In this document: piece by piece, positions 1 to 15,987 of the stretch
How the letters are laid out: every line of letters begins with the position of its first letter
How positions within the stretch are numbered: the first letter of the stretch is position 1
Source of the DNA: Pseudonocardia broussonetiae
GTDB taxonomy: Bacteria; Actinomycetota; Actinomycetes; Mycobacteriales; Pseudonocardiaceae
Assembly: GCF_013155125.1 (NCBI RefSeq)
Contig: NZ_CP053564.1
Span: 131,501-195,500, forward strand
Direction: 5' to 3'
DNA: 64,000 nt
The notes under the pieces: generated by a model
What the model was told of the DNA's origin: nothing
Database searches by the model: none
The model's input: only the letters and a program-made list of their open reading frames with translations
Translations under genes and position numbers: made by a program

Positions 1-691
1 GCAGGTTCCACGGGCTCGTCGACACGTAGAACACGGGCCGCTCGGGCTTGCCCGGCTTCGTCACCAGCGCGCGGTACAGGGCGGCGGCACCGGGGAGCGG
101 GGTGCGCTCCTCGACGTCGGTGAGCAGGGTGGCCTTGAGGAAGTCGAGGCCGCGGGTGAGGCCGGTGTTGAGGATCGTGTCGTCGACGTCGCTGATGACG
201 CCCACGTCGACGGCCGGGTCGACCAGCAGCACGCGCGCCGTGGCGTGCGCGCCGTCGGGGCCGCTCAGCCGGAGCTCCAGCCACCCGGGCGCGACGCCGG
301 AGAGCTCCAGCTCGTGGTCGATGTAGCCGTCGCGGTTGGTCTGCACGACGACGTCGCCGCCGGGCGCGTGGATCGTCACCGACGCCCGCGGCACCTCGAC
401 GGTGAGGAACCGCGCGAGGCTGACCCGCAGGGTCGCCCGGCGCGACCGCGGCGAGGACGGGGCGTCGCCGATGCGCACCGCGGGCGCCGACGGCTCGACG
501 GCCGCGCGCCGCCCCAGCACCAGCCGCGCACCGACCCGCGCGCGCTCGGTGGTGCCGTGCCCGATGAACGGGATGATGAGCGGGTACCGGTGCCCCCCGA
601 GGCGGGCGCCCGCGGCGATCCCGGTCTCCACGACGTCCTCCAACCGGAGGAGGGCGTACGTGAGCTGTCTGCGCCAACTGCGTGCCGTCAC
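1..691 (-). CDS. App1-type (DUF2183) phosphatase, 3' end outside the window
   Basis: About 230 residues from a GTG start at 691 are visible; the C-terminus lies beyond base 1. The protein has an N-terminal beta-rich region (residues about 30-165) and then the haloacid-dehalogenase-like phosphatase motif ISDVDDTILNTG (about 166-177), with the DxDxT aspartates, followed by a VFYVSTSPWNL segment typical of the App1/DUF2183 family. In yeast App1 this fold dephosphorylates phosphatidate; bacterial members are unassigned. The start overlaps the stop of the PIG-L gene as GTGA, so it is probably translationally coupled. It is the last visible gene of the operon and could remove a phosphate from the pathway intermediate; that role is inferred from position only. 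Confidence 0.8.
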   Translation of the reverse strand, partial: MTARSWRRQLTYALLRLEDVVETGIAAGARLGGHRYPLIIPFIGHGTTERARVGARLVLGRRAAVEPSAPAVRIGDAPSSPRSRRATLRVSLARFLTVEVPRASVTIHAPGGDVVVQTNRDGYIDHELELSGVAPGWLELRLSGPDGAHATARVLLVDPAVDVGVISDVDDTILNTGLTRGLDFLKATLLTDVEERTPLPGAAALYRALVTKPGKPERPVFYVSTSPWNL

Positions 692-1446
692 GGGAGTAGG
701 GCTACCGCACCGGGTACCGCGGCGCTACACCGGGGCACCGTGAACACCTCCGCGCACCCGCCGGATCCGGGGCCCGCCTCGGCCGCCGCCAGCTCGCGCA
801 GCACCGGCCCCACCTGCTCCGGACCGCCGAACTGGAACCCCAGCTGGGTCGTGTAGCAGCGGGCGGCGGCGATCTTGAGGTCCAGGTGCCGGGTGACGTC
901 GACGGCGCGCCGCTCCCCCGGCGGCGACCACGGCCGCGCGTCCGGGCGCCGCAGCACGTACGGCGCGTCGCGCCACCACGCCGCCCCGGGCGCGAGCCGG
1001 GCCACCACGTCGACGACGACCCGGTGGTCGGCGTGGTCGCCGATCCCCTGCGGCGCCAGCACCAGGTCGACGCCGGCGAGGTGCGCGTTGAGGGCGTCGG
1101 CGAGCGGGCCGCGCACCCCGTCGTCGTCGTGGACGCCCGCGAACAGGTCCGGGGCACTCACGTAGCCGCGGTGCGGCGCCTCGGGCAGCGGCAGGTGCAC
1201 CGGCGTCGCGCCGAGCACCGCGCAGGCGGCGGCGTCCTCGGCGCGGCGCAGGGCCAGGTAGTCGACGGACGCGTCGAGGCCCTTGTCCAGCTGCGTCGAC
1301 AGCGCGAACGGCGGCGGGTCCGGCACGCTCGCGGTGAAGCAGGTGACGACCACGACCTCCCATCCCGCCCCGGCGAGCGCGGCCAGGGTCGCGCCCGCGG
1401 AGAACACGGCGTCGTCCAGGTGCGGGGAGACCGCCACGGCCCTCAC
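688..1446 (-). CDS. PIG-L family deacetylase
   Basis: 252 residues. The metal-binding signature is SPHLDDAVFSAG at residues 7-18 (His9, Asp11, Asp12), a common variant of the PHPDDE motif, and the second site is GIGDHADHRV (Asp137, His138, Asp140, His141). PIG-L enzymes are zinc N-deacetylases acting on GlcNAc-linked substrates; MshB of mycothiol synthesis and its amidase relative Mca belong here. It starts with GTG 10 nt after the glycosyltransferase stop and overlaps the next gene by 4 nt. Directly after a GT4 enzyme, and with an inositol-phosphate synthase in the same operon, a GlcNAc-cyclitol deacetylase role is plausible, but the true substrate is unknown. Confidence 0.85.
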   Translation of the reverse strand: MRAVAVSPHLDDAVFSAGATLAALAGAGWEVVVVTCFTASVPDPPPFALSTQLDKGLDASVDYLALRRAEDAAACAVLGATPVHLPLPEAPHRGYVSAPDLFAGVHDDDGVRGPLADALNAHLAGVDLVLAPQGIGDHADHRVVVDVVARLAPGAAWWRDAPYVLRRPDARPWSPPGERRAVDVTRHLDLKIAAARCYTTQLGFQFGGPEQVGPVLRELAAAEAGPGSGGCAEVFTVPRCSAAVPGAVALLP

Positions 1447-1456
1447 AGCGCCGCCC

Positions 1457-2713
1457 TCACAGCAGGTGCGGCGCCGCGCGGAACCGGCAGTCCGGGTCGA
1501 CGGGCGGGTCGGGGATCTCCGGGATCTCCGCGCGGTCGGCGAGCACGGCGTCGTAGACGTCGGTGATCCGCCCCGCGACCACCGGCCACGACCAGAGCCG
1601 GTGCACGTCGGAGTGCGCCTGCGCGACGATCCGCCGGCGCAGCGCGTCGTCGTCGAGCACGCGGCGGATGCCGGCGGCCAGCGCGGGCGGGTCGGCGGGC
1701 GGCACGAGGACGCCGTTGTCGTCCGGCCGGACGCAGTCCCGCACGCCCACCACGTCGGTCGACACCACCGGCAGCCCCGACGCCATCGCCTCCAGGATCG
1801 TGTTCGAGAACCCCTCGGCGTAGGTCGGGCTGACGAACACCTCACCGCGCCGGTAGACCTCGTGCGCCCGCTCGTAGGGCACGGCGCCCAGCAGTTCGAC
1901 GTCGGCGCGCAGACCGAGCTCGTCGACGGTGCGGGCGACGAGGTCGGTGTCGGGCCCGATCCCGGAGACGAGCAGCCGCACGGGCACGTCGTCGTCGCGC
2001 AGCAGGCGGACGGCCTGCAGCAGGTCGAGCACGCCCTTCCGGGCGTCGACGCGACCGTGGTAGAGCAGCACGGCGGGGTCGCCGACCGGCGCGACCGACT
2101 CCCCGTCGACGGGTGTGAACCGCTCCGCGTCGGTGGCGCCGGGCACGAGCGTGAACCGCCCGACGTCGATGCCGTGGCGCTGCGCGACCTCCGCAGCGAA
2201 GGACGGCGAGCCGATCAGCAGCGCGGGCGCGTGCGCGAACACCGCGCGGACCAGGTCGCGGTGCGTGGCGCAGCAGGTGCCGACCCAGTGCCCGTCGCCA
2301 CCCTGCACCGACACCACCGCGGGCAGCCCGGCCTCCCGCGCGGCGCGCAGCACGGCGAGGCCGTTGGGGTAGGCGTACTGGGCGTGCAGGACGTCGAAGG
2401 GCTCCTTCTCGTGCAGGTCGAGGACGGTGCGGGTCATCGCGTCGACGTCGCCCTCGAAGTCGGCGCGCTCCCCGCGCCCGACGGCCTGCTCGCCCAGCGC
2501 CTCCAGCGCGACGACCTGCACGCCGTCGGGCACCCGGTCGGCGGGCGGCGGGCCGCCGCCGTAGACGGCGCGCCCGGCCTCGTCGCCGCGGTACTGCGAC
2601 ACCATCGTCACCTCGTGCCCGACGCGCACGAGGTGGCGCAGCAGGTTCTCCGCGTAGGCGCTCATGCCCGAGACGGCGGGCCAGTAGCGGCGGGAGACGA
2701 AGCAGACCCTCAT
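1457..2713 (-). CDS. GT4 family glycosyltransferase (MshA-like fold)
   Basis: 418 residues with the GT-B layout. The N-terminal domain begins MRVCFVSRRYWPAVSGMSAY (glycine-rich acceptor loop). The C-terminal donor domain has VLLYHGRVDARKGVLDLL and the E-x7-E nucleotide-sugar motif EGFSNTILEAMASGLPVV. The ATG overlaps the TIM-barrel stop as ATGA. Family members retain the alpha-anomeric configuration; MshA, which joins GlcNAc to inositol phosphate, is one. The operon supplies an inositol phosphate synthase and a PIG-L deacetylase, so an MshA-like step is a reasonable hypothesis, but the donor cannot be read from the sequence. Confidence 0.87.
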   Translation of the reverse strand: MRVCFVSRRYWPAVSGMSAYAENLLRHLVRVGHEVTMVSQYRGDEAGRAVYGGGPPPADRVPDGVQVVALEALGEQAVGRGERADFEGDVDAMTRTVLDLHEKEPFDVLHAQYAYPNGLAVLRAAREAGLPAVVSVQGGDGHWVGTCCATHRDLVRAVFAHAPALLIGSPSFAAEVAQRHGIDVGRFTLVPGATDAERFTPVDGESVAPVGDPAVLLYHGRVDARKGVLDLLQAVRLLRDDDVPVRLLVSGIGPDTDLVARTVDELGLRADVELLGAVPYERAHEVYRRGEVFVSPTYAEGFSNTILEAMASGLPVVSTDVVGVRDCVRPDDNGVLVPPADPPALAAGIRRVLDDDALRRRIVAQAHSDVHRLWSWPVVAGRITDVYDAVLADRAEIPEIPDPPVDPDCRFRAAPHLL

Positions 2714-3552
2714 GCCGCCACCCGGCTCTCCGCCTCGCGCAGCGCGGCGAGCGCGGCGGGCACGAGGACGTCGGCGCGGTGGGAGTCGCGCGAGAGCTCG
2801 AGCGACACCAGCCGCCGGTAGCCGACGTCGGCGAGCGCGCCCAGCACGGCGGGCAGGTCCATGTCGCCCTCGCCGGGGGCGCGGTGCTCGTGGCGCCCGC
2901 GGGGCATGTCCTCGACGGCGCACGCCCCGAGGTGCCCGGCGAAGGTGCGCACGGCGTCGGCGGGCTCGTAGGAGCCGGAGACGATGCAGTGGCCGGTGTC
3001 GAGCGCGAGCGTGAGGTCCGGGACGGCCTCGTGCAGGCGCGCCCAGTCGTCGCAGTCGTCGACGAGCATCCCCGGCTCGGGCTCGAACGCGCAGGTCACC
3101 CCCGCGTTGCGGGCGTGCTCCACGACCTCGCCGACGCCCTCCACCAGCCACTCCCACGCGTGCGCGCGATCCACCTCCGGCGCCGGGACGCCCGCCCAGA
3201 ACGACACGGCCTCGCTGCCCAGCTCGGCGGCGACGTCCACGCAGGTGCGCAGGAAGGCGACGCGGACGGCGCGCGCGTGCGGGTCCTCCGTGACGAGCGT
3301 GGGCCGGTGCTTGCGGCGCGGGTCGAGCAGGAACCGCGCGCCGGTCTCCACGACGCTGCCGAGCCCGAGGGTCTCCAGCTGCCGGCGCAGCGCGCGCGTG
3401 CGGGCGGGCAGCGCGGGGGCGAACGGGTCGTGGTGGTGCACGTCGAGGGTGAGCGCGACGCCGTCGTAGCCGGAGTCGGCGAGCAGCGTGAGCGCGTCGT
3501 CGAGGCGGTGGCTGGTCAGGCCGTTGGTGTTGTAGGCGTACCGGAGGGTCAT
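2710..3552 (-). CDS. Sugar phosphate isomerase/epimerase, TIM-barrel (xylose isomerase-like)
   Basis: 280 residues. It opens with MTLRYAYNTNGLTSHRLDDA and has the repeated strand-helix pattern of AP-endonuclease/xylose-isomerase barrels. Likely metal ligands are in CAFEPEPGML, LALDTGHCI, HLGACAVEDM and LVSLELS, near barrel strand ends. This superfamily includes inosose dehydratase (IolE), inosose isomerase (IolI) and hydroxypyruvate isomerase. ATG overlaps the YcaO stop (ATGA) and its own stop overlaps the GT4 start. Next to an inositol synthase and a Gfo/Idh gene, it would suit isomerisation or dehydration of an oxidised cyclitol; this is inferred. Confidence 0.82.
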   Translation of the reverse strand: MTLRYAYNTNGLTSHRLDDALTLLADSGYDGVALTLDVHHHDPFAPALPARTRALRRQLETLGLGSVVETGARFLLDPRRKHRPTLVTEDPHARAVRVAFLRTCVDVAAELGSEAVSFWAGVPAPEVDRAHAWEWLVEGVGEVVEHARNAGVTCAFEPEPGMLVDDCDDWARLHEAVPDLTLALDTGHCIVSGSYEPADAVRTFAGHLGACAVEDMPRGRHEHRAPGEGDMDLPAVLGALADVGYRRLVSLELSRDSHRADVLVPAALAALREAESRVAA

Positions 3553-5015
3553 GCGGTGCTCCTCGCCAGTGCGTGCCGGGTGGGTTCGCGGTAAAGGGGG
3601 TAGAGCGGGCCGACGGCCGCGGCGACGGCGTCGAGGTCGAGCCACGCGTCGTCGCCGAGGCGCTCGCGTCCCTGCGCGGTGAGCACGACGGGGGCCGCGC
3701 CGGGGTGCGGGGGCGACCCGAGGCCCGCGAGATCCCGCCCGGACCGGTTGCTTCGGGCCCGCAGCTTCTCCACCCCGCGCGCCCCGATCCGGCCGTAGGA
3801 CATGGTCTCGACCTCCAGCCCCGGGACGACGACCTTCGCGCTCACCGCGCCCCCGCCGCGGGCGAGCACCACGAGGACGTCCAGGTCGGCGAGGCGCTCC
3901 AGGAGGTCGGCGAGCAGCGCCGCCGGGTCGTCGAGGGAGCCCGGGGGCACCGTCGGGAGGTCGGTGAACGGGACGGTCCGGTGGACGCTGAGCACCGTCG
4001 GCGCGAGCAGGTCCTGCAGCTCGGCGGCGCTGCGGCGCGACCAGTCGCGCATCGCCGCCAGCGCCCGCGGCTCCTGGTCCGGCACCGGGGACGCCAGCTC
4101 GCGCTCCCAGTACGCGGGCGGGGCGAGCGGGCGGACGCGGTCCAGCGGGCCGTGCGCGAACACCTTGCGCGAGCGCGCGGCCGCGTACTCCAGCAGGGCC
4201 TTGCGCAGCGCGACCTCCCGGTCCGGGTGGCACGCCTCCCCGCACGCGGTGACGGCCAGCGGCTCGGCGTCCGGGTCGGCGTCGACGCCGACGACGTGCA
4301 CGTCGGCCAGCCCGAACTGCGTCGACGCGAGCTTGGCCAGCACCGTGATCCCGGCGCCGCGCAGCTGCCCGAGCACGCGGTGCGTGACGGGGTCGGTGAC
4401 GCCGTCCAGGTCGAGGACGGTGCCCTCGTCGAGCGCGCGGAACGCGGTGCCGTTGCCGTCGCGCTGCAGCAGCTCCAGGAGGCCGTGGGCGACGGCGCGC
4501 GCCGCGGTGTCGCCGGCGCCCGAGCCGTTGGTGATCACCGTGATCAGCCGCTCGGCCGGGTCCTGGTCGGCGACGTCGGGCGCCCAGGACGCGCAGAACT
4601 CCGCCGGCAGCCGGACGGCCTCCCCGGTGCGCCAGCGCGTCGCGGGGAGCCAGGTGCGGGGCCGGTCGTCGTCGACGACGGTGCCGGCGGGCAGCACCAG
4701 CTCCCGGGGGTCGACGACGCCGCGCTCCCCGAGCTCGCGGCGCAGCTCCGCGTAGGAGGCCCGGCGCGGGGTGAGCGCGCGCAGGTGGTGGTGCAGCAGC
4801 GCGGCCTCGACCAGCTCGCCGTAGGCGCCGGTGCGGGCCTGCTCGACGGTGTGGCCGTAGCCGAAGGAGCCGAACCGCGGGGGCCCGGTGACGTCCGCGG
4901 CCACCACCGGCACCCCGACGCGGTCGGCGCCGGAGATCGGGAAGTCGCCGGCGTCGGCGTCGCCCAGTGCGGCGCGCAGGAGGTCGGCGGTGCCCGTCCT
5001 GGCGGGTGCGCTCAC
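3549..5015 (-). CDS. YcaO-domain protein (ATP-dependent amide-activating family)
   Basis: 488 residues. YcaO features are YGELVEAALL (65-74, the acidic helix), TNGSGAGDTAARAVAHGLLE (162-181, the nucleotide-binding loop and helix) and KALLEYAAARSRK (272-284). Characterised YcaO enzymes use ATP to phosphorylate an amide oxygen, making azolines, thioamides or amidines in peptides or proteins. No ThiF/E1-like partner, TfuA-like protein, azoline dehydrogenase or precursor-peptide gene is visible between 1 and 10101. The C-terminus (YPLYREPTRHALARSTA) lacks the proline-rich PxPxP tail of azoline-forming enzymes. Starts with GTG overlapping the upstream stop. The substrate is unknown and may not be a peptide. 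Confidence 0.88.
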   Translation of the reverse strand: MSAPARTGTADLLRAALGDADAGDFPISGADRVGVPVVAADVTGPPRFGSFGYGHTVEQARTGAYGELVEAALLHHHLRALTPRRASYAELRRELGERGVVDPRELVLPAGTVVDDDRPRTWLPATRWRTGEAVRLPAEFCASWAPDVADQDPAERLITVITNGSGAGDTAARAVAHGLLELLQRDGNGTAFRALDEGTVLDLDGVTDPVTHRVLGQLRGAGITVLAKLASTQFGLADVHVVGVDADPDAEPLAVTACGEACHPDREVALRKALLEYAAARSRKVFAHGPLDRVRPLAPPAYWERELASPVPDQEPRALAAMRDWSRRSAAELQDLLAPTVLSVHRTVPFTDLPTVPPGSLDDPAALLADLLERLADLDVLVVLARGGGAVSAKVVVPGLEVETMSYGRIGARGVEKLRARSNRSGRDLAGLGSPPHPGAAPVVLTAQGRERLGDDAWLDLDAVAAAVGPLYPLYREPTRHALARSTA

Positions 5016-5836
5016 GTCAGCTCCTCCAGCGGCACCGGCCCCGCCAGCGGCTGCCGCCCGAGGTGGTGGTCGAACAGGGCGAGCACCTGCTTCTGCGTCA
5101 CCGGGGCGGCGAACTCGAACGGCGTGGCGACGGCCTCGAAGTCCAGGCGCTCCACCAGCGCGCGGGCCTCGCGGATCTCGTCGTGGGAGAGCGGGATCTG
5201 GGCGTGGTAGGCCTTGTGGCAGCTCAGCCCGACCGGCCGGTCGCCGTCGAGGTCGACCTTGAGCAGGTCGCCGACGAACAGGATCCCGCGGCGCTCGTCG
5301 TGCAGGACGGCGTGGCCCGGGAAGTGCCCGCCGGACCGGTGCATCACCAGGCCCGGCGCCAGCTCGTGGCGGGCGTCGGTGGGCCAGGTGACGACGAACG
5401 CCTTGGTCCAGGCGAGGTCGCGGACGTCGATCGCGAGGACGGGCGGCGCCAGCTCGTCCTGGAGCTGCCACAGCGCGCCGTAGCCGTGGACGTGGCTCGC
5501 CCCCAGCGCGACCAGCCCGCCCCGGCGGCGCAGCTCGGCCAGCGCGTCGGGCGGGTAGAAGCCGGCGCCCTCCCAGCCGACGAGCCCGGCGTCGGTCTCC
5601 AGGACCCAGCCGGTGGTGCCGAGCCCGATCTGCGGCTCGCACCAGAACCCGGTGACGCCCGGCGCGACCTCGGCCCAGCGCGCGGCGCGGCCGGCGAGGT
5701 CGTCGGGCGTCGTCCAGGCCCAGCCGTCCTCGGGCAGCGCGTTGCGGACGTCGGTGCACACGGGGCAGGACGGTGGTTCGGCGAACCAGCGCTGCCAGTG
5801 CCCGCAGTTGTCGCACGAGTAGGGGCGCAGGGGCAT
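5012..5836 (-). CDS. Metallo-beta-lactamase-fold hydrolase with N-terminal zinc ribbon
   Basis: 274 residues. A zinc-ribbon or rubredoxin-like knuckle with Cys8, Cys11, Cys24 and Cys27 precedes a beta-lactamase-like core: ASHVHGYGAL (His115, His117) in place of the usual HxHxDH, SGGHFPGHAVL (His171, His175) and VGDLLKVD (Asp190). The loss of the DH pair suggests altered metal binding or a different chemistry. ATG follows the oxidoreductase stop by one base, and the gene's own stop overlaps YcaO. Its position immediately before YcaO suggests it may serve the same reaction, but no substrate can be read from the sequence. Confidence 0.75.
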   Translation of the reverse strand: MPLRPYSCDNCGHWQRWFAEPPSCPVCTDVRNALPEDGWAWTTPDDLAGRAARWAEVAPGVTGFWCEPQIGLGTTGWVLETDAGLVGWEGAGFYPPDALAELRRRGGLVALGASHVHGYGALWQLQDELAPPVLAIDVRDLAWTKAFVVTWPTDARHELAPGLVMHRSGGHFPGHAVLHDERRGILFVGDLLKVDLDGDRPVGLSCHKAYHAQIPLSHDEIREARALVERLDFEAVATPFEFAAPVTQKQVLALFDHHLGRQPLAGPVPLEELT

Positions 5837-5837
5837 G

Positions 5838-6900
5838 TCAGGTCCTCTCGAGCGCGGTGAGCAGCAGGGTGTGCAGGGCGAGGTCGCGGTGCAGCGGGTA
5901 GGGCCAGTCCGCGGCGCCCGCGACGGCGGCGGAGAACGCGGCGAGCTGCGCGGTGAAGGGGCTGGTGGCGGTGTCGAACGGGACCTCGGTGGCCGTGCCC
6001 GTGGTGGCGTCGACGCGCGTCAGCGTGCCGCCGGGCGTCTGGCCGAGGGTGTCGACGGCGACGAGCTGCGCGCGCGTCCCGACGACCTCCAGGCGGCGCC
6101 GCGGGAGGGCGTCGGGCGTGGCGAAGGAGACGTGCGCGGAGTACAGGACGCCGCCCGCGGTGTGCCCGGCGAGGACGCCGCCGTCGTCGACGGGGTAGTC
6201 GTGGACCCGCGTGCGGGTGAGGACCGAGAGCGCGACGAGGTCGTCGCCGCCGAGCAGGGTGCCGACGAGGTCGACGCCGTGCGGGGCGAGGTCGATCACC
6301 GCGCCGCCGCCCGGGTCGACGCGCCAGTTGTGCTGCGGAGTCCCGTCGGGCGACCACTCCGGCGGCAGCCAGCAGCCGTAGACGATCCGCACCGCGGTGA
6401 CCGTGCCCAGCTCGCCGGCCGCCACGATGTCCGCGATCCGCCGGTGGGCGGGGTGGAAGCGCTGGTCGAAGGCGGTGCCGGCGAGGGCGGGGGCGGCGTC
6501 GACGAGTGCCTGCGCGCCCGCGACGTCCGGGGCGAGGGGCTTCTCGCACAGGAGCGGGAGGCCGGAGCCGGCGACGGCGGCCACCACGGCGGGGTGGGTG
6601 TGGGTGGGGGGTGGCGAGGTAGAGGGCGTGGAGGTCGGGGAGGTGCAGGAGGCCGTCGAGGGCGTCCGGAGTTGCAGGAAAGCCACGTTCCCGCAACGGG
6701 GTGGCGGGAACGTGGCTTTCCTGACCCCCGGCGCCGGCCCCGCGGTACGCCGCCACCGCCGCCCGCGCCGCCGCGGGATCCCGGTCGTGCACCCCCACCA
6801 CCCGCGCCCCCGCCACGGCCCGCATCCCGGGCAGGACGTGGTCGCGCGCCACCCAGCCGCAGCCGACGACGCCCCAGTTCACGACTCCGTGCACCCTCAC
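5838..6900 (-). pseudogene. Gfo/Idh/MocA oxidoreductase, frameshifted and carrying a palindrome insert
   Basis: The N-terminal Rossmann part reads VNWGVVGCGWVARDHVLPG and continues to LHALYLATP. The remainder, from THTHPAVVAAVAG and the active-site LLCEKPLAP to the C-terminus, is in another frame. Removing one G from the run at 6606-6611 restores one continuous frame with the family hallmark ATPTHTHP. Between the Rossmann helix and DALDGLLHLP about 20 extra residues (QESHVPATPLRERGFPAT) are encoded by a short palindromic repeat (6676-6722). GTG at 6900 overlaps the methyltransferase stop, matching the operon's habit. An intact version would be an NAD(P)-dependent cyclitol or sugar dehydrogenase. 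The frameshift may be a sequencing indel; the insert is a separate oddity. Confidence 0.8.
6676..6722. repeat. Palindromic repeat, class A copy 1 (intragenic)
   Basis: Perfect 19-bp inverted repeat: left arm AGGAAAGCCACGTTCCCGC (6676-6694), 9-nt loop, right arm 6704-6722. The outer 15 bp match the copies at 41651 and 43017. It lies inside the oxidoreductase coding region and is translated in frame. Confidence 0.9.
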
Positions 6901-8027
6901 CACCGGTCCGGCAGGTCGAGCAGCAGCCGCCGGCGCACGGCGTCGGCGACGGGCAGGGGCGTCCACCGCTCCGGGAGGTAGCGCTCGGCCCGCGGCCCGT
7001 ACTCCTCCGCCCACCGCACGTGCGGCCAGATCCGGCCGCGCGGGCCGCCGGGGTCGCCGTAGAGGGGGTTGGGGCGCAGGGCGGCACCCGGTGCGGGCCG
7101 CAGCAGCGTGCGGTCGGGCGGGGCCGCGGCGTCGTCGTCGGCCAGCCCGATCGCCTCGGTACCCATCAGCTCGGCGGGCGTCGCCGGGAGCGCGACGCGG
7201 TCCTCGACGGCCGCCGCCGTCAGCTCCTCCTCCGCGTAGGTCGCCGAGCCGGGCAGCAGCGCCGTCCAGCCGGGCGCGTCGAGCGGCAGGCCCGAGCGCC
7301 CGGCGGGGTGCGTGGCGTTGTGGCAGTGCCCGAGCAGCACCGCCCCGCCCTCGCCCGCCGCGGCCCGCGCCCGCTCGACGACCCGCTCCTTGTCGGGCAG
7401 GAAGTACAGCGCGTCGTGGCACGCGACGTGGCGCGGACGCCCGGGCGCGGGCAGCGGCCAGGGCGCGGTGAGGTCCGCGCACACCAGCGACGCCGCCCCG
7501 GGCGGCAGCACGAACCGGTGCGCCAGCCACAGCTTGGCGAACACCACGTCGACGCCGACCAGGTCGCGGTGCCCGTGCGAGGCGAGGTGGCGCAGCAGGT
7601 GACCGGCCCCGCAGGCGAGGTCGACGACCGGACGCCCGGCGGGCGGGTGCGCGGCGGTCAGCGCGAGGGCGGCCAGCCAGCTGGGGTCCGACCAGCGGTG
7701 CAGGAAGTAGACGCCGACGCGGCCGAGGCCGAGCAGCGTCACGGCGTCGCGCAGCGTCCGCGCGTGCAGCGCCGCCCGCAGCCGTTCCGGCGGCGGCGGG
7801 GGCTCGTCCCACCAGTCGTCGGCGTCGGCGAGCAGGGCCACGGCGGCGCCGTCGGGGTCACCGTCGTCGAGCGCGGCGACGGCCCGCTCCCGCACGTCGT
7901 CGCGCCCGGCCCGCAGCCACGCGATCCCCGAGACGACCGGCCAGCGCCGCTCCCCGTCGGTGAGCGTGGCGGGGGTGTCGGCGCGCAGCGGGGTGCCGTC
8001 GGCCGCGACCCAGGCGGGAGCGGTCAC
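6897..8027 (-). CDS. SAM-dependent methyltransferase (class I)
   Basis: 376 residues. After an N-terminal region of about 120 residues, PVVDLACGAGHLLRHLASHG (from about residue 133) is motif I of class I methyltransferases, followed by LVGVDVVFAKLWLAHRF with the acidic residue that binds the SAM ribose, then CADLTAPWPLP and VACHDALYFLPDKERVVERA. The long C-terminal part (PNPLYGDPGGPRGRIWPHVRWAEEY) is not a common module I can name. GTG at 8027 overlaps the upstream stop and the TGA overlaps the next gene. Probably methylates the operon's product or an intermediate; the acceptor is unknown. Confidence 0.8.
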   Translation of the reverse strand: MTAPAWVAADGTPLRADTPATLTDGERRWPVVSGIAWLRAGRDDVRERAVAALDDGDPDGAAVALLADADDWWDEPPPPPERLRAALHARTLRDAVTLLGLGRVGVYFLHRWSDPSWLAALALTAAHPPAGRPVVDLACGAGHLLRHLASHGHRDLVGVDVVFAKLWLAHRFVLPPGAASLVCADLTAPWPLPAPGRPRHVACHDALYFLPDKERVVERARAAAGEGGAVLLGHCHNATHPAGRSGLPLDAPGWTALLPGSATYAEEELTAAAVEDRVALPATPAELMGTEAIGLADDDAAAPPDRTLLRPAPGAALRPNPLYGDPGGPRGRIWPHVRWAEEYGPRAERYLPERWTPLPVADAVRRRLLLDLPDRW

Positions 8028-8920
8028 AGCCCGGCCGCCGCGAGGACCGCGTCGTGGTAGCCGGTGACGGGTCCGGCGTGCACGAGGTCGAGGTCGTCGA
8101 GCGCCTGCGCCGGGGTGAACGCGGCCGCGCGGGCGTGGTGGTGGACCTGCAGCACGCGGTCGAGGACGTCCGCGGCGTGGAACGCCCGCCCGACCGGGGT
8201 GTCCGCGTCGGCGCGAAGCGCGAGCAGGTCCCGCACGCGCCCGGCCAGCGGGTCGGGCAGCGCGGCGAGCTCGCGCTCGGTGAGCCGCTCCAGCAGCGGG
8301 TCGAGCTCCGCGCCCAGCAGCGTCTCCCCCGCGAACCCGGCGTCGGGCAGGGCCGCGTTGTGCAGGTGGTGGGCGAGCCCGAGCAGGAACACCGCGCCCG
8401 GGTCGGCGTCGAGGTCGTCGGCCAGCAGCGCCCCGAGGACGGCGACGGCCCAGCAGTGCTCGGCGTGGTCCTCCGGCGGCTCGACGACGAGGCGCGGGCG
8501 CCCCGGCGCCGTCGCCCCGGCCCGGGGCTGCCGGCGCAGGGCGTCGACGAACGCGGGCGGCGCGACGGGCTCCACCGCCACCGGCGGGGCGACCCGGACC
8601 CGGGCCACCGTCGCGGGGTGCAGCGGCCCGGCCACCTCGTCGATCGCCCGGCGCAGCACGGCGTCCGGGTCGGCGACCCCCGTGGCGGCCAGCACGTCGG
8701 CGTCGATCCCGGCCAGGCGCGCGCCGGCCAGCGCCGCCGCGCACTCCGCGGCGGCCACCGCGCCCTCGTCGGCGCCGCCCAGGACCGCGGCCCACGCCCG
8801 TGCGAAGGACCGGTTCGCGACGGAACCCTCCGCGTGCGCGACCCGCACCCGCTTGAGGTCGGTGACCTCCCGGAACAGCGGCACCACCGCCGCCAGCCGC
8901 GCGGTGGGGACCGTCGTCAC
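8024..8920 (-). CDS. HD-domain-like protein with altered HD dyad
   Basis: 298 residues. The C-terminal two thirds resemble an HD phosphohydrolase: DHAEHCWAVAVLGALLADD gives an early histidine, LLGLAHHLHNA stands where the His-Asp dyad is expected (here His-His), and AFHAADVLDRVLQVHHHA gives the late aspartate. The first 130 or so residues are unrecognised. The missing Asp suggests reduced or different metal chemistry. It is the second gene of the operon, overlapping its neighbours by 4 nt on both sides. It might be a phosphatase for inositol phosphate or a binding protein; I cannot choose. Confidence 0.6.
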   Translation of the reverse strand: MTTVPTARLAAVVPLFREVTDLKRVRVAHAEGSVANRSFARAWAAVLGGADEGAVAAAECAAALAGARLAGIDADVLAATGVADPDAVLRRAIDEVAGPLHPATVARVRVAPPVAVEPVAPPAFVDALRRQPRAGATAPGRPRLVVEPPEDHAEHCWAVAVLGALLADDLDADPGAVFLLGLAHHLHNAALPDAGFAGETLLGAELDPLLERLTERELAALPDPLAGRVRDLLALRADADTPVGRAFHAADVLDRVLQVHHHARAAAFTPAQALDDLDLVHAGPVTGYHDAVLAAAGL

Positions 8921-10101
8921 CCTCGGTCCAGCCAGTCCAGCAGCACCTGCTCCTGCAGGTGCAGCGCGTGCTCGGGCACGCCGCCGTCGGACGTCATCGG
9001 CTGCTTGAAGAAGTACCCCAGCTGCTCCTGCGCGCCGCCCTCGCCGCGCCGCGCGGCCTCGGCGACCAAGCGCACCAGCTCCAGCACCAGCGGCGCCGCG
9101 AGGATCGAGTCGCGGCACAGGAAGTCGATCTTCATCTGCATCCGCTGGCCCATGAAGCCGACGAGGTCGATGTTGTCCCAGGCCTCCTTGGCGTCGCCGC
9201 GGGGGCGGTAGTAGTCGATCCGCACCACGTGGTCGTCGACGTCGTAGCCGAGGATGGAGTCGAGCACCGACCCCTTCGTGTCCAGCTTGCTGGCCAGCGA
9301 CGACGGGTCGTCGAGGATCTGGCCGTCGCGGTTGCCGAGGATGTTGGTCGAGTACCAGCCCTCGACGGTGAGCGCGCGCGAGCGGAACGCGGGCGCCAGC
9401 ACCGTCTTGACCATCGTCTGCCCGGTCTTGCCGTCCTTGCCCGCCACCGGCACGTTCTCGCGCGCGGCCAGCTCCAGCAGGGCGGGCACGTCCGGGCCGA
9501 GGCTCGGCGTGAAGTTGACGAACGGGCAGCCCTCGGTGATCGCGGCGTAGGCGTAGACCATGCCCGGCGTGATCACCGGGTCGTCGAGGTCGAGGCCCTT
9601 CTCGAACGTGTCGAGGTCGCCGAGGATCGCCGACGTGCGGTCCGGCCACGCCTCGGTCGAGGCGAGGTTGACGACGACGACCGTGTCGAGCGACTGCTCC
9701 TCGCGGAAGCGACGCAGGTCGTCGCGCAGGTGGGCGACGCGCTCGCGCAGCGGCCCGACGGGCACGACGTTCGCGCCGACCGCGTTGCGGCAGTAGGCCG
9801 GGTCGACCACCGCGGGCCACGGCGAGATCGACGCGAGGGGTTCGGCGACGGCGTCGAGCTGCGCCGGCTCGATGACGCGGTGCACCGCGGCCGCCTTCGC
9901 CAGGTCGCTGCCGTCGAGGTCCCAGCCCGCGAACACCAGCGACTCGTAGGGCGCGAGCTCCGTGCGGTGCGCCAGCGGGAGGCCGTCGGTGCCGATGGTG
10001 CCGAGCCGGAGCTGCTCGATCCCGGCGATGGCGGTCGTCGCGACCGCCCCGCCCAGACCGATGATCGCGACCCCGGTCCGGGGGCCGGTTACCTCTGCCA
10101 T
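8917..10101 (-). CDS. Inositol-phosphate synthase (myo-inositol-1-phosphate synthase family)
   Basis: 394 residues, the usual bacterial length. The Rossmann loop is VAIIGLGGAVATTAIAGI (11-28). The catalytic core has VAGKDGKTGQTMVKTVLAP and WYSTNILGNRDG, the most conserved blocks of the family, and GYFFKQPM near the end. The enzyme converts glucose 6-phosphate to inositol 3-phosphate with bound NAD. ATG at 10101 follows a good ribosome-binding site (AGAGGGA). As first gene of a ten-gene operon it probably feeds a cyclitol phosphate to the glycosyltransferase and modifying enzymes, in addition to any housekeeping ino1 elsewhere. The leader holds a small hairpin. Confidence 0.88.
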   Translation of the reverse strand: MAEVTGPRTGVAIIGLGGAVATTAIAGIEQLRLGTIGTDGLPLAHRTELAPYESLVFAGWDLDGSDLAKAAAVHRVIEPAQLDAVAEPLASISPWPAVVDPAYCRNAVGANVVPVGPLRERVAHLRDDLRRFREEQSLDTVVVVNLASTEAWPDRTSAILGDLDTFEKGLDLDDPVITPGMVYAYAAITEGCPFVNFTPSLGPDVPALLELAARENVPVAGKDGKTGQTMVKTVLAPAFRSRALTVEGWYSTNILGNRDGQILDDPSSLASKLDTKGSVLDSILGYDVDDHVVRIDYYRPRGDAKEAWDNIDLVGFMGQRMQMKIDFLCRDSILAAPLVLELVRLVAEAARRGEGGAQEQLGYFFKQPMTSDGGVPEHALHLQEQVLLDWLDRG

Positions 10102-10370
10102 GGTGTCCCTCTCATCGACCTCTCGTGTCACTGCGAGAGGACTGGTACCCGTCCTCCACCTGGGGAATCGCGGTGTCGCCGTCCGGTCGACGCGCGAGTG
10201 GCGGGCGGAGTACCTACTGTTGTAGGCAGGTCGCGTGCGGTCCGACGGCCGGGCGCCGGGCCGGTATTCGGCGATCCCGCGGACGGGTCCGGAGCGGCTC
10301 TCCCGGCACTCCCGAGGGCCCACCCCGACGTGATTCATGTCACAGGAGTCCGGGCCGTAGGCTCGACGCA
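10102..10370. promoter_or_regulatory. Divergent control region of the inositol operon and the HAD gene
   Basis: On the minus side, a 7-bp stem-loop (CCTCTCG 10119-10125 with CGAGAGG 10134-10140) lies just before the synthase ribosome-binding site, and the dyad CCTACTGTTGTAGG (10213-10226) sits about 110 nt upstream of the ATG, beside TAGGTA on the minus strand, a weak -10 candidate. The dyad resembles a BlaI-type operator (CTACA-NN-TGTAG) with one change. On the plus side TAGGCT (10358-10363) is 7 nt before the HAD GTG, giving a leaderless mRNA. Confidence 0.45.
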
Positions 10371-11018
10371 GTGCGCACCGTCCTGCTCGACCTCGACGGC
10401 ACCCTCGTCGACTCCGCCGCCCTGATCACCACGCACCTGTCCGCCGCGCTGGCCACGATCGGCGTGGCCCGCACGCCGGCCGAGCTGCTCCCCCTCGTCG
10501 GCCCGCCGTTCGAGACCGCGCTGCCCGCCCTCGGCCTCACCGCCGAGCAGACCGCCGCCGTGATCACCGTGTACCGCTCCACCTACGACGCCGTCGCGGC
10601 CACCGAGACGCCGCTCTACCCCGGCACGGTCGGCCTGCTGGAGCGCCTCGGCGGGCTGCGGCTCGCCGTCGCCACCTCGAAGCCCGAGCACGTCGCCCGC
10701 CGGATCGTCGACGGCGTCGGCATCGCGGCGTTCTTCGCCCTCGTCGGCGGCGCCGACCAGCCGAACGGGCGCCTGGGCAAGGCCGCCGTCATCGCCTCGG
10801 TCCTCGACCGGCTCGACCTCGACCCGGCCCGCGAGCCCGTCGTCATGGTCGGCGACCGCCACCACGACGTCGACGGGGCCGCCGCCTTCGGCATCCCGAC
10901 GATCGGGGTGTCCTGGGGCTACGCCGAGCCGGGCGAGCTGGTGGGCGCGCAGAAGGTCGTGGCCGACGCCGACGAGCTCGCCGACACCCTCACCGGGGAC
11001 GCGACCTGGTCCCGGTAG
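10371..11018 (+). CDS. HAD-family phosphatase (phosphoglycolate phosphatase-like)
   Basis: 215 residues. Motif I is LLDLDGTLVDSA (catalytic DxD), motif II lies in LAVATSKPEHV, the motif III lysine is probably in NGRLGKAAVI, and motif IV is MVGDRHHDVDGA followed by GIPTIGVSWGYAEPGEL. The helical cap between residues 15 and 80 places it with Gph/PgmB-type phosphatases. The GTG start follows TAGGCT by 7 nt, so the transcript is probably leaderless. The substrate is not predictable; it lies between, but is not clearly part of, the inositol operon and the glycerol genes. Confidence 0.82.
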   Translation: MRTVLLDLDGTLVDSAALITTHLSAALATIGVARTPAELLPLVGPPFETALPALGLTAEQTAAVITVYRSTYDAVAATETPLYPGTVGLLERLGGLRLAVATSKPEHVARRIVDGVGIAAFFALVGGADQPNGRLGKAAVIASVLDRLDLDPAREPVVMVGDRHHDVDGAAAFGIPTIGVSWGYAEPGELVGAQKVVADADELADTLTGDATWSR

Positions 11019-11022
11019 GCGG

Positions 11023-12546
<1,524 letters not shown>

Positions 12547-12579
12547 CACGCCCACCCCCTCATCGCCGCCGCCCCGCCC

Positions 12580-12693
12580 CGACACGCGCGCAACCAGACC
12601 CCGACTCGCGGGCCTCCCCCCGCAAGCCGCGGGCCTGCCCCCGCGAGTCGCGAGCCTCCCCCCGCGAGTCGGGGTGTCGTTGCGCGCGTGTCG
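12580..12693. repeat. Long nested inverted repeat with short internal repeats
   Basis: Outer arms CGACACGCGCGCAAC (12580-12594) and GTTGCGCGCGTGTCG (12679-12693) enclose CCCGACTCGCGGG (12600-12612) and its complement (12661-12673). The centre repeats GCGGGCCT-CCCCCGC-like units. It lies between iclR and glpK, both on the minus strand, and could form a large hairpin in the transcript, either a terminator or an attenuating leader of glpK. Confidence 0.85.
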
Positions 12694-12700
12694 CGGTGGC

Positions 12701-13465
12701 TCACGGCGTCCCCACCACCAGCGAGGCCGAGATCTCCCGGGCCGCCGCGACGAGGTGCACCGCGACCGGAGCCCGCAGCTCCCCGCCGATCCCGAACAGC
12801 TCCTCCACCGGCCCGACCACGCCGATCGCGCCCGCCACCAGCCCCCCGCTGCCGCGCAGCGCCGCCGCCGCTCCCCCGGTGCCGGACTCGAACTCCCCGC
12901 TGTCGCCCGCCCAGCCCCGGCGCCGCGCGACGGCGAGGTGGGCCTCCAGCGCGGGGACCGTCGAGCAGGTGCGCCCGGTGTAGGGCGTCAGCGCCAGCTC
13001 GCGCGGGGGCGGCGTCGCGACGGGGGCGAAGGCGAGCAGGCACTTGCCCAGCGCCGTGGCGTGCAGCGGTTGTTCCTCGCCGGTGCGGATGGTCTGCGGC
13101 GTGCCGTCGGGGCGGAAGACGTGGTGCACCAGCCGCACCGCCCCGGCGTCGGGCACGCCGATCTGCACGGCGAGGCCGGTGCTCCCGGCCAGGGAATCGG
13201 CCCAGTTCATGGCCCGGGCGCGCAGGTCGTGGCGGTCCCAGCCGCCGCGGCCCAGCTCGCGCAGCGCGTCGCCCAGCACGTAGCGCGCCGACGGGTCCTG
13301 CTCGACGAACCCGACCTCCTTCAGCGTCCGCACGATGCCGTGCGCGGTGGGGCGGGGCAGGTCGAGCGCCGCGGCGATCTCGTTGATGCCCAGCGGACGG
13401 TCGGTGCTGCCGAGCAGTCGCAGCACCGCCGCGGCGCGCTCGATCGACTGGATGGAACCCGGCAC
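12701..13465 (-). CDS. IclR-family transcriptional regulator of the glycerol genes
   Basis: 254 residues from GTG at 13465. The winged helix-turn-helix covers [36 protein letters not shown] and [13 protein letters not shown] (residues about 4-60). The effector domain has [13 protein letters not shown] and [12 protein letters not shown], typical of IclR proteins. An upstream ATG at 13528 would put the operator inside the gene. Instead the minus-strand hexamer TACAGT (13473-13478) is 7 nt before GTG 13465, which supports that leaderless start. In Streptomyces the IclR-type GylR controls glycerol genes, and this one sits between two glpK genes and next to glpF. Confidence 0.87.
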
Positions 13466-13510
13466 CCGACCCACTGTAGGACCGCGGTGTGATCTGCGGC
13501 CGGACGGCGG

Positions 13511-13525
13511 TTCGACAATGTCGAA
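13511..13525. promoter_or_regulatory. Putative IclR operator
   Basis: Perfect dyad TTCGAC-AAT-GTCGAA. It ends 9 nt before the glpF -35 element and lies about 45 nt upstream of the iclR start, a good position for control of both divergent promoters. Confidence 0.65.
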
Positions 13526-13534
13526 CACCTCGCG

Positions 13535-13563
13535 TTGACCCCGATCGTGAGCGTTCCTAGTTT
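13535..13563 (+). promoter_or_regulatory. glpF promoter
   Basis: TTGACC (13535-13540), 17 nt, TAGTTT (13558-13563): a housekeeping-type promoter placed about 43 nt upstream of the glpF ATG if transcription begins near 13570. Confidence 0.6.
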
Positions 13564-13612
13564 TCGGTCACGGTCCGCTGTGGGGGTGGGCCGACGAGAG
13601 AGGACTTCACTG

Positions 13613-14458
13613 ATGAAGAACTCGTTAGTCGGGGAGCTGAGTGCCGAGTTCCTGGGCACGATGATCCTGATCCTGTTCGGCGTCGGGGTCGTGGCGCAGG
13701 TCGTCACCGCGCCCGACGGCAGCCTCGGCGACCACGACTCCATCACCTGGGCGTGGGGCATCGGCGTGACGCTGGGTGTCTACGTCGCGGCCCGGCTGTC
13801 GGGAGCGCACCTGAACCCGGCCGTCACCATCGCGCTCGCCGCCTTCAAGGGCTTCTCCTGGCGCAAGGTGCTGCCCTACTCGCTCGCGCAGACCGCGGGC
13901 GCGTTCGTGGCCGCCCTGATCGTGCGCTTCGTCTACTCCGACCTGATCGCCAAGGTCGACCCCGGCCACACCATCGCCACCCAGGGCATCTACTCGACGC
14001 TGCCGGGCAACGGCGTGGAGGGCGTCAGCATCGGCACGGCGTTCTTCGACCAGATCGTCGGCACCGCGATCCTCGTGTTCGTGATCTTCGCGCTCACCAC
14101 GGCGGCCAACAACCCGCCGATGGCCAACCTCGGCCCGGTGGTCGTGGGCCTGCTCGTCGTCGCCATCGGCATGGCGTGGGGCGCCAACGCCGGCTACGCG
14201 ATCAACCCGGCGCGCGACTTCGGCCCCCGGCTCGCCTCGTTCATCACCGGCTACGAGACGGCGTGGGTGGACCAGAACGGCACGCCCTACTGGTGGTTGC
14301 CGATCGTCGCGCCGATCATCGGCGGCCTGATCGGTGGCGCACTGTTCAAGTTCGCGATCGAGGGCTTCCTGCCCGCCGAGGCGGAGGAGATCACCGTCTC
14401 GGAGCCGACGGTGCCCGAGCCCCGTGGGACGACGACCGACACCACCCAGAACGCGTAG
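13613..14458 (+). CDS. glpF: Glycerol uptake facilitator, aquaglyceroporin
   Basis: 281 residues with six hydrophobic spans and both half-helix motifs: [15 protein letters not shown] (first NPA) and [13 protein letters not shown] (second NPA; the Asp after NPAR is characteristic of glycerol facilitators rather than pure water channels). The ATG at 13613 has AGAGAGG upstream. Passive inner-membrane glycerol channel. It leads an operon with glpK (11 nt downstream) and glpD, so uptake, phosphorylation and oxidation are transcribed together. The polar tail (residues about 258-281) is acidic and proline-rich. Confidence 0.94.
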
Positions 14459-14469
14459 AGGAGAGCCTG

Positions 14470-15987
14470 ATGGCCGAGTTCGTCGGAGCAGTCGACCAGG
14501 GAACCACCAGCAGCCGCTTCATGATCTTCGATCACAGCGGCAACGAGGTGGGCCGCCACCAGCTCGAGCACGAGCAGATCCTCCCGCAGGCGGGCTGGGT
14601 CGAGCACAACCCCGTGGAGATCTGGGAGCGCACCTCGGCGGTCATCCAGACCGGGCTGAACAAGACCGGCCTGTCGTCCTCGGACCTGGCGGCGCTGGGC
14701 ATCACCAACCAGCGCGAGACGGCCGTCGTGTGGAACCGGCGCACCGGGCGCCCGCTCTACAACGCGATCGTCTGGCAGGACACCCGCACCGACCGCATCG
14801 CCACCGCGCTGGACAAGGACGGGCGCGGCGACGTCATCCGGCAGAAGGCGGGCCTCCCGCCGGCCACCTACTTCTCCGGCGGCAAGATCCAGTGGATCCT
14901 GGAGAACGTCGACGGGGCCCGGGCGCTCGCCGAGAGCGGTGACGCCATCTTCGGCAACACCGACACGTGGCTGATCTGGCACCTCACCGGCGGCGTCAAC
15001 GGCGGGGTGCACGTCACCGACCCGACCAACGCCAGCCGCACGATGCTGATGAACCTCGAGACGCTCGACTGGGACGACGAGCTCCTCGGCTTCTTCGACA
15101 TCCCGCGCTCGATGCTGCCGAAGATCGAGCCGAGCTCGTGCCCCGGCGGGTACGGGTCGACGCTCGCGGGCGGCCCGCTCGGCGGCGAGGTGCTCATCAC
15201 CGGCGACCTCGGCGACCAGCAGGCCGCCACCGTCGGCCAGGTCTGCTTCGCCCCCGGCGAGGCCAAGAACACCTACGGCACCGGCAACTTCATGCTGCTC
15301 AACACGGGCACCGAGCTCGTGCGCAGCAAGGCGGGCCTGCTGACGACCGTCGGCTACAAGTTCGGCGACGACGCGCCGGTCTACTGCCTGGAGGGCTCGA
15401 TCGCCGTCACGGGGTCGGCGGTGCAGTGGCTGCGCGACCAGCTCGGCATCATCTCCGGCGCCTCCCAGAGCGAGACGCTGGCGCGCCAGGTGGAGGACAA
15501 CGGCGGCGTGTACTTCGTGCCGGCGTTCTCCGGGCTGTTCGCGCCGTACTGGCGCTCCGACGCGCGCGGCGCCATCGTCGGCCTCTCGCGCTACAACACC
15601 AACGCGCACCTGGCCCGGGCCACGCTCGAGGCGATCTGCTACCAGAGCCGCGACGTCGCGGAGGCCATGGAGAAGGACTCCGGGGTGCACCTGGAGACGC
15701 TCAAGGTCGACGGCGGCGTCACCGCCAACGAGCTGTGCATGCAGATCCAGGCCGACGTGCTCGGCGTGCCGGTCAGCCGGCCCGTCGTCGCGGAGACCAC
15801 GGCGCTGGGCGCGGCGTACGCGGCCGGCCTCGCGGTCGGGTTCTGGAAGGACACCGACGAGCTGCGGTCGAACTGGAACGAGTCCAAGCGCTGGGAGCCG
15901 CAGTGGTCGGCCGATCAGCGTGACTCGGGTTACGAGCAGTGGAAGAAGGCGGTCACCCGGACGTTGGACTGGGTAGACGTGGGCTGA
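14470..15987 (+). CDS. glpK: Glycerol kinase (second copy, glpFKD operon)
   Basis: 505 residues. [67 protein letters not shown] and [16 protein letters not shown] identify glycerol kinase. The ribosome-binding site is AGGAGAG just before ATG. It is clearly homologous to, but diverged from, the minus-strand copy at 11023-12546, so this is an old duplication rather than a recent one. Produces glycerol 3-phosphate for GlpD encoded immediately downstream. Confidence 0.95.

Follow-up and report, generated by a model that had tools for sequence, protein, structure and literature searches.

The window analysed here is a 64-kb stretch of Pseudonocardia broussonetiae DNA (64,000 nucleotides; contig NZ_CP053564.1, positions 131,501 to 195,500). 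At its left end, the coordinates of the open reading frames (ORFs) define a minus-strand operon of ten ORFs, one of which encodes a YcaO-domain protein (Table 1). An earlier note, made from the sequence alone, had reported ten genes on one strand with 4-nt overlaps at seven of nine junctions and had assigned each product to a family. The ORF coordinates bear out this arrangement, and Pfam models back the families of all ten products. The overlaps read GTGA or ATGA, and the two other junctions are a 1-nt gap between Gfo/Idh and MBL and a 10-nt gap between GT4 and PIG-L. The APP1 gene extends beyond the first base of the window, and its end lies at L002:13064 (locus record:position). An RNA element at the operon was ruled out, as no Rfam model matched at gathering score in window 1-12600.

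Table 1. Genes of the P. broussonetiae operon in the order of transcription (window positions; Pfam models with bit scores).
Gene product	Position	Strand	Pfam support
INO1, myo-inositol-phosphate synthase family; first core gene	8917..10101	-	PF07994 204.7 bits; PF01658 115.9 bits
HD, HD-superfamily protein	8024..8920	-	PF13023 30.6 bits
MT, S-adenosylmethionine (SAM) methyltransferase	6897..8027	-	PF13649 32.3 bits
Gfo/Idh, Gfo/Idh/MocA oxidoreductase; interrupted frame	5838..6900	-	PF22725 78.8 bits (C-terminal half)
MBL, zinc-ribbon metallo-beta-lactamase-fold protein	5012..5836	-	PF00753 26.1 bits
YcaO, YcaO-domain protein	3549..5015	-	PF02624 163.5 bits (cut-off 25.7)
TIM, xylose-isomerase-like TIM barrel (epimerase/isomerase)	2710..3552	-	PF01261 124.7 bits
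GT4, GT4 glycosyltransferase	1457..2713	-	PF00534 124.5 bits
PIG-L, PIG-L deacetylase; last core gene	688..1446	-	PF02585 56.4 bits
APP1, APP1-type phosphatase; first part only, non-core	1..691	-	PF09949 162.8 bits (full gene, L002:13067-14191)

The Gfo/Idh frame is broken in this assembly because a run of C near 6605 differs in length by one base. As the copy in P. oceani (L025) is uninterrupted, the break reflects either a sequencing error or a recent lesion. An interspersed palindromic repeat with a 45 bp core occurs in three copies in the window (6677-6721, from 41652 and from 43018). The first of these lies inside Gfo/Idh, and a copy also lies inside the P. oceani gene, where it is in frame.

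Conservation and distribution of a nine-gene unit

Relatives of the operon were collected with YcaO alone as bait. A profile built from 22 YcaO sequences retrieved 279 relatives from a collection holding one genome per species, and the best 80 loci were analysed. At 46 of these 80 loci, INO1, HD, MT, Gfo/Idh, MBL, YcaO, TIM, GT4 and PIG-L were all present on one strand and in this order, a co-occurrence far beyond chance. The neighbourhood is thus conserved in other genomes as a unit of nine genes and not of ten, as the earlier note had proposed: APP1 was found at only one of the 80 loci and is a local addition outside the conserved unit. The remaining 34 loci comprised ten with YcaO alone, five with no more than the first six genes and 19 with other subsets or orders, several of them cut by contig ends. 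The five six-gene loci belonged to Actinomycetospora, and a TIM-GT4-PIG-L module was present elsewhere in four of these genomes; it was not found in the fifth, a metagenome-assembled genome (MAG). The median junction was a 4-nt overlap at seven of the eight core junctions, MT/Gfo not being measurable because the start positions of Gfo derived from a partial query. Further, the pairwise distances of the nine proteins correlated with one another across the 46 loci (Spearman 0.67-0.90, uncorrected for shared ancestry).

The YcaO tree included Actinomycetota, Pseudomonadota, Myxococcota, Planctomycetota, Chloroflexota and Verrucomicrobiota. The full nine-gene order occurred in the first three of these phyla, and reduced or rearranged sets in the last three. 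Among the hosts were Geodermatophilus, Modestobacter, Rubrobacter, Hymenobacter, Methylobacterium, Lichenicoccus, Streptomyces and Micromonospora. Plasmid copies were detected in Roseomonas (nine genes), Hymenobacter (Bacteroidota; MT not found) and Methylobacterium (MBL not found), and that of Roseomonas haemaphysalidis has as neighbours two genes with a spore photoproduct lyase family annotation (L118:14738-16859). Occurrence among close relatives was patchy. YcaO was found in three of 60 near relatives, P. broussonetiae itself included, and in one of 35 congeners; the first pass of this survey scored at most 26 candidates per genome. HD was detected in seven of 396 sampled genomes of the phylum and YcaO in ten, and all seven HD-positive genomes (P. 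broussonetiae included) carried YcaO 1.9-3.3 kb away. This patchy occurrence, together with the plasmid copies, suggests horizontal transfer of the operon. In a Pseudonocardia MAG (L089), YcaO (L089:4426-5811) is 47% like that of the window and groups with Geodermatophilaceae in the YcaO tree, while the neighbouring genes are 71-84% like those of the window; YcaO was apparently replaced in place within an otherwise window-like operon.

At 19 of the 80 loci, a GalE-like epimerase gene accompanied the operon at a distance of no more than 1.5 kb, on either side and either strand. These loci belonged to Micromonospora, Geodermatophilaceae, Acetobacteraceae and a verrucomicrobial MAG; the ten genes of the window's operon do not include the epimerase. 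The copy of locus L026 (L026:3675-4751), the one copy scored, passed the cut-off of the GalE model (262.3) with 294.5 bits, and the other 18 were 31-78% identical to it. The presence of such an epimerase beside the operon fits a UDP-hexose donor. An IclR-like gene, with weak regulator matches, followed YcaO at six Actinomycetospora loci, and the next commonest families occurred at no more than six of the 80 loci each. Just past the P. broussonetiae operon (window 11023-15987), the ORFs read as two glycerol-kinase-like proteins, an IclR-type regulator and a GlpF-type channel.

Conserved residues and variants of the core proteins

YcaO of the operon is the sole YcaO found in the P. broussonetiae genome. 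The ATP-site residues E67, E70, E181 and R281 were invariant in all 80 sequences, but position 184 is a Gln. Characterised YcaOs include the cyclodehydratases of ribosomally synthesised and post-translationally modified peptides (RiPPs) and the enzyme of McrA thioamidation. The operon YcaO shares with these the YcaO domain and most of the conserved acidic residues, but differs in lacking a visible peptide or protein partner, in the invariant Gln and in its natural fusion to a zinc-ribbon MBL. Such a fusion was found at locus L101, where MBL and YcaO form one protein of 790 residues. When this protein was used as query, 1091 relatives were retrieved, and 34 of the best 120 were near-complete MBL-YcaO fusions (43-100% identical to the query), although a fusion query favours fusions at the head of the list. 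Because the fusions occur naturally, MBL and YcaO probably act together. In MBL, the four ribbon Cys residues and H115, H117, H171 and D190 were present in 67 of 68 sequences, the other having a gap, and the profile matched PqsE thioesterases weakly (E 3e-4). Operons of Myxococcaceae contained two or three tandem YcaOs (L066:5256-8157, L059:323-4812). An apparent YcaO-GT4 fusion (P0337) was disregarded, since it probably reflects read-through across a frame shift.

INO1 matched the solved structure 7nwr with 286.6 bits, and K225, K232, K276, K305 and K366, which align with lysines of solved inositol-phosphate synthases, were kept in 55 of 55 sequences. At L050 (Isosphaeraceae) and L101 (Verrucomicrobia), the INO1 slot is occupied by a protein of the dehydroquinate (DHQ)-synthase fold (PF01761). 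The replacement of INO1 by another ring-forming enzyme favours, without proving, a cyclitol as the first product of the pathway, and the cyclitol-first idea of the earlier note fits these two loci. The pairing of TIM with INO1 was mixed: both were missing at L050, L082, L098 (where a 36% match lies on the opposite strand) and L101, and L088, L091 and L099 keep TIM without INO1.

Among the other core proteins, HD retained the metal-type residues H152, H155, H184, H185, D193, D251, D254 and H281 in 65 of 65 sequences, and its profile showed weak similarity to an oxetanocin-like HD protein (E 0.004). E157, D185, H188, H221 and E252 of TIM were present in 56 of 57 sequences (one gap). In PIG-L, H9 and D12 were found in 59 of 59 and H138 and H141 in 58 of 59 (one gap). 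GT4 contained EGFSNTxLEAM in 60 of 60 sequences and a QGGDGHWVG loop in 59 of 60. At the site of this loop, MshA of P. broussonetiae has SAHTLARVKN, so the acceptor pocket of GT4 probably differs from that of MshA, and a mycothiol-like acceptor site for GT4 was not supported.

YcaO loci without the operon and known pathways

The operon-less YcaOs showed a second genomic context. A polysaccharide-deacetylase-like gene was found near YcaO at eight of the ten operon-less loci and a sugar-binding protein at seven of the ten; neither was found at any of the 70 other loci (L063, one of the ten, supplied a query). Both were also present at L105 and L107, from two of the three operon-less genomes of the phylum sample. 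When six of the deacetylases were scored on the Pfam model, those of L105 and L107 exceeded the cut-off, that of L092 was below it and those of L063, L053 and L084 gave no match; the L063 protein is 36% identical to that of L105 over 247 residues. Operon-less YcaOs lie beside sugar ABC importers (L105:1-20000, L063:11401-15550), with genes that read as glycoside hydrolases too at L105, and nine of 13 operon-less or importer-type YcaOs formed their own clade in the YcaO tree. It is possible that these loci are an uptake or breakdown counterpart of the operon. Since deacetylases adjoin YcaO in both contexts, an N-acyl sugar is suggested, though not proved, as the YcaO substrate.

The mycothiol pathway (Ino1, MshA, a phosphatase, MshB, MshC and MshD) has the inositol-phosphate synthase, GT4 and PIG-L families in common with the operon, which in contrast adds YcaO, MBL, Gfo/Idh, TIM and MT and has no ligase or acetyltransferase domain among its ten proteins. 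The mycothiol genes of P. broussonetiae are located elsewhere in the genome and all scored above their cut-offs: MshA 644.7 (C1:2223741; 644.5 in a separate scoring), MshB 285.6 (L019), Mca 492.8, Ino1 686.3 (L023) and MshC 667.6 (C1:5114598). The operon proteins remained far below the corresponding curated models, GT4 with 83.6 on the MshA equivalog TIGR03449 (cut-off 462.5), PIG-L with 15.8 on the MshB equivalog TIGR03445 (224.35) and INO1 with 32.5 on the mycothiol-type Ino1 model TIGR03450 (638), and none of the ten matched the cysteine ligase MshC. Thus, the operon is not the mycothiol pathway. The strain's mycothiol genes are distinct from the operon genes for GT4, PIG-L and the synthase; the earlier note had set the opposite case against its own proposal. 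The bacillithiol pathway (BshA, BshB and BshC) also shares GT4 and PIG-L with the operon and was rejected likewise, the scores being 78.4 against 273.7 for BshA and 19.5 against 182.5 for BshB1.

The ebo cluster, as far as the excerpted description goes (PMC5133447), is likewise conserved as an operon and has no known product; it combines a putative cyclitol-forming enzyme with a xylose-isomerase-like TIM barrel. Unlike the operon, it includes a UbiA-type prenyltransferase (EboC), a domain not found among the ten operon proteins, and the same excerpt names no YcaO, GT4 or PIG-L (PMC5133447). A role in anti-phage defence was rejected: the lone PADLOC match among seven operon proteins tested was that of the methyltransferase to mad2 (44.8 bits, across the methyltransferase stretch). 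The gene set was not found described in the open-licence PubMed Central (PMC) literature, which does not cover subscription papers, in agreement with the earlier note, which knew of no such pathway.

A putative pathway to a sugar-linked cyclitol

We propose, with a probability of roughly 0.5, that the nine genes form a cassette for the synthesis of a sugar-linked cyclitol that is intracellular and bears a group derived from an amide by YcaO and MBL. The proposal starts from the gene content and order, the parallel divergence of the proteins, their conserved residues, the cyclase in the INO1 slot and the MBL-YcaO fusion; the reactions, their order and the product are what we infer from the protein families. 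INO1, or the DHQ-synthase-fold cyclase at two loci, would make the ring, and HD would most likely act as the phosphatase. Oxidation and epimerisation of the ring or the sugar may fall to Gfo/Idh and the TIM barrel. GT4 would transfer an N-acylated hexose from a UDP-sugar to the ring, this being N-acetylglucosamine (GlcNAc), or N-acetylgalactosamine (GalNAc) where a GalE-like gene adjoins; PIG-L would remove the acetyl group, and the methyltransferase would cap a hydroxyl or an amine. YcaO, paired with the zinc-ribbon MBL, would activate an amide in an ATP-dependent manner, for example the N-acyl group of the amino sugar, and attack by a neighbouring hydroxyl, amine or sulfide would yield an oxazoline, amidine or thioamide. 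More tentatively, such action of YcaO and MBL on the amide of an amino-sugar-cyclitol, a non-peptide substrate, would be a new branch of YcaO chemistry, central to a widespread and horizontally moving pathway.

Several observations weigh against this proposal. Position 184 of YcaO, a Gln in 80 of 80 sequences by alignment (a regular-expression count gave 55 of 80, with 25 unmatched), is Glu in both solved YcaOs aligned, so the use of ATP by this YcaO is not certain. MBL mostly has HxHGYG for the canonical HxHxDH, the second half of the motif being lost, and the dyad of HD is His-His instead of His-Asp; given these altered motifs, the roles of both proteins are guesses. The L050 and L101 cyclases fell below the AroB model (200.3 and 205.3, cut-off 305) but exceeded NF004852, a 3-dehydroquinate synthase model (463.6 and 545, cut-off 333), and among solved structures the L101 cyclase matched dehydroquinate synthases best (157.1 bits; a cyclase 115.2, 2-deoxy-scyllo-inosose synthase 86). 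Both could accordingly be ordinary shikimate enzymes. Further, operon-type INO1 was absent in four of five genomes with INO1-less loci and had a distant match in the fifth, in a search to which mycothiol-type Ino1 was probably invisible and in which one locus (L082) ended just upstream of HD. Finally, inositol catabolism, too, typically involves enzymes of the Gfo/Idh and TIM families.

This last point leads to an alternative, in which an inositol or amino-sugar compound is degraded or remodelled by the operon enzymes, with Gfo/Idh, TIM and MBL acting as in inositol catabolism and YcaO opening an amide. The deacetylase-like genes and sugar-binding proteins beside operon-less YcaOs and the glycoside hydrolases at L105 are in its favour; however, INO1 and GT4 are synthetic families, the importer-locus sugar-binding protein was found at none of the 70 other loci and most of the YcaOs there form a separate clade, and we consider this alternative unlikely. 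A mycothiol-like low-molecular-weight thiol, with YcaO in place of the MshC-type ligase, is quite unlikely. Its first steps would use the same enzyme types (INO1, GT4 and PIG-L), and several of the hosts (Acetobacteraceae and Myxococcota) are not known as mycothiol producers. P. broussonetiae, however, already possesses mycothiol genes up to MshC (MshD was not searched), and both the cysteine ligase and acetyltransferase domains and the MshA-type loop are absent from the operon proteins.

A sunscreen-like or desiccation-protective molecule, an analogue of mycosporine-like amino acids, would combine a cyclitol ring with methylation, ATP-dependent carbonyl activation and glycosylation, a step logic resembling that of mycosporine-like amino acids. 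Many of the hosts (Geodermatophilus, Modestobacter, Rubrobacter, Hymenobacter, Methylobacterium and Lichenicoccus) live on exposed surfaces, and the spore photoproduct lyase family genes adjoin one plasmid copy. Nevertheless, the ten proteins contain no ATP-grasp or nonribosomal peptide synthetase (NRPS)-like domain, Streptomyces and Micromonospora are hosts too, and we regard this molecule as improbable. YcaOs are best known from ribosomal-peptide clusters, so an azoline- or thioamide-forming cluster placed among sugar genes by chance was also weighed; it is disfavoured as highly improbable. The SagD-type model TIGR03604 matched YcaO weakly (72.5 bits, cut-off 219.25), and PxPxP, the C-terminal hallmark of YcaOs of azoline-forming RiPP clusters (thiazole/oxazole-modified microcins, TOMM), was found in the last 40 residues of none of the 80 YcaOs. 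No RiPP partner protein or precursor was present among the ten operon proteins, whose junctions are tight, although no search was aimed at short peptides or partner families.

The cassette is compact and has cultivable hosts (Micromonospora, Streptomyces, Geodermatophilus and Roseomonas), so the proposed sugar-linked cyclitol pathway is open to direct testing. Genome searches that rely on YcaO alone may be classing clusters of this type with the RiPPs. If the proposal is true, the operon would represent a widely distributed, undescribed small-molecule pathway, and YcaO amide activation would extend beyond peptide chemistry.

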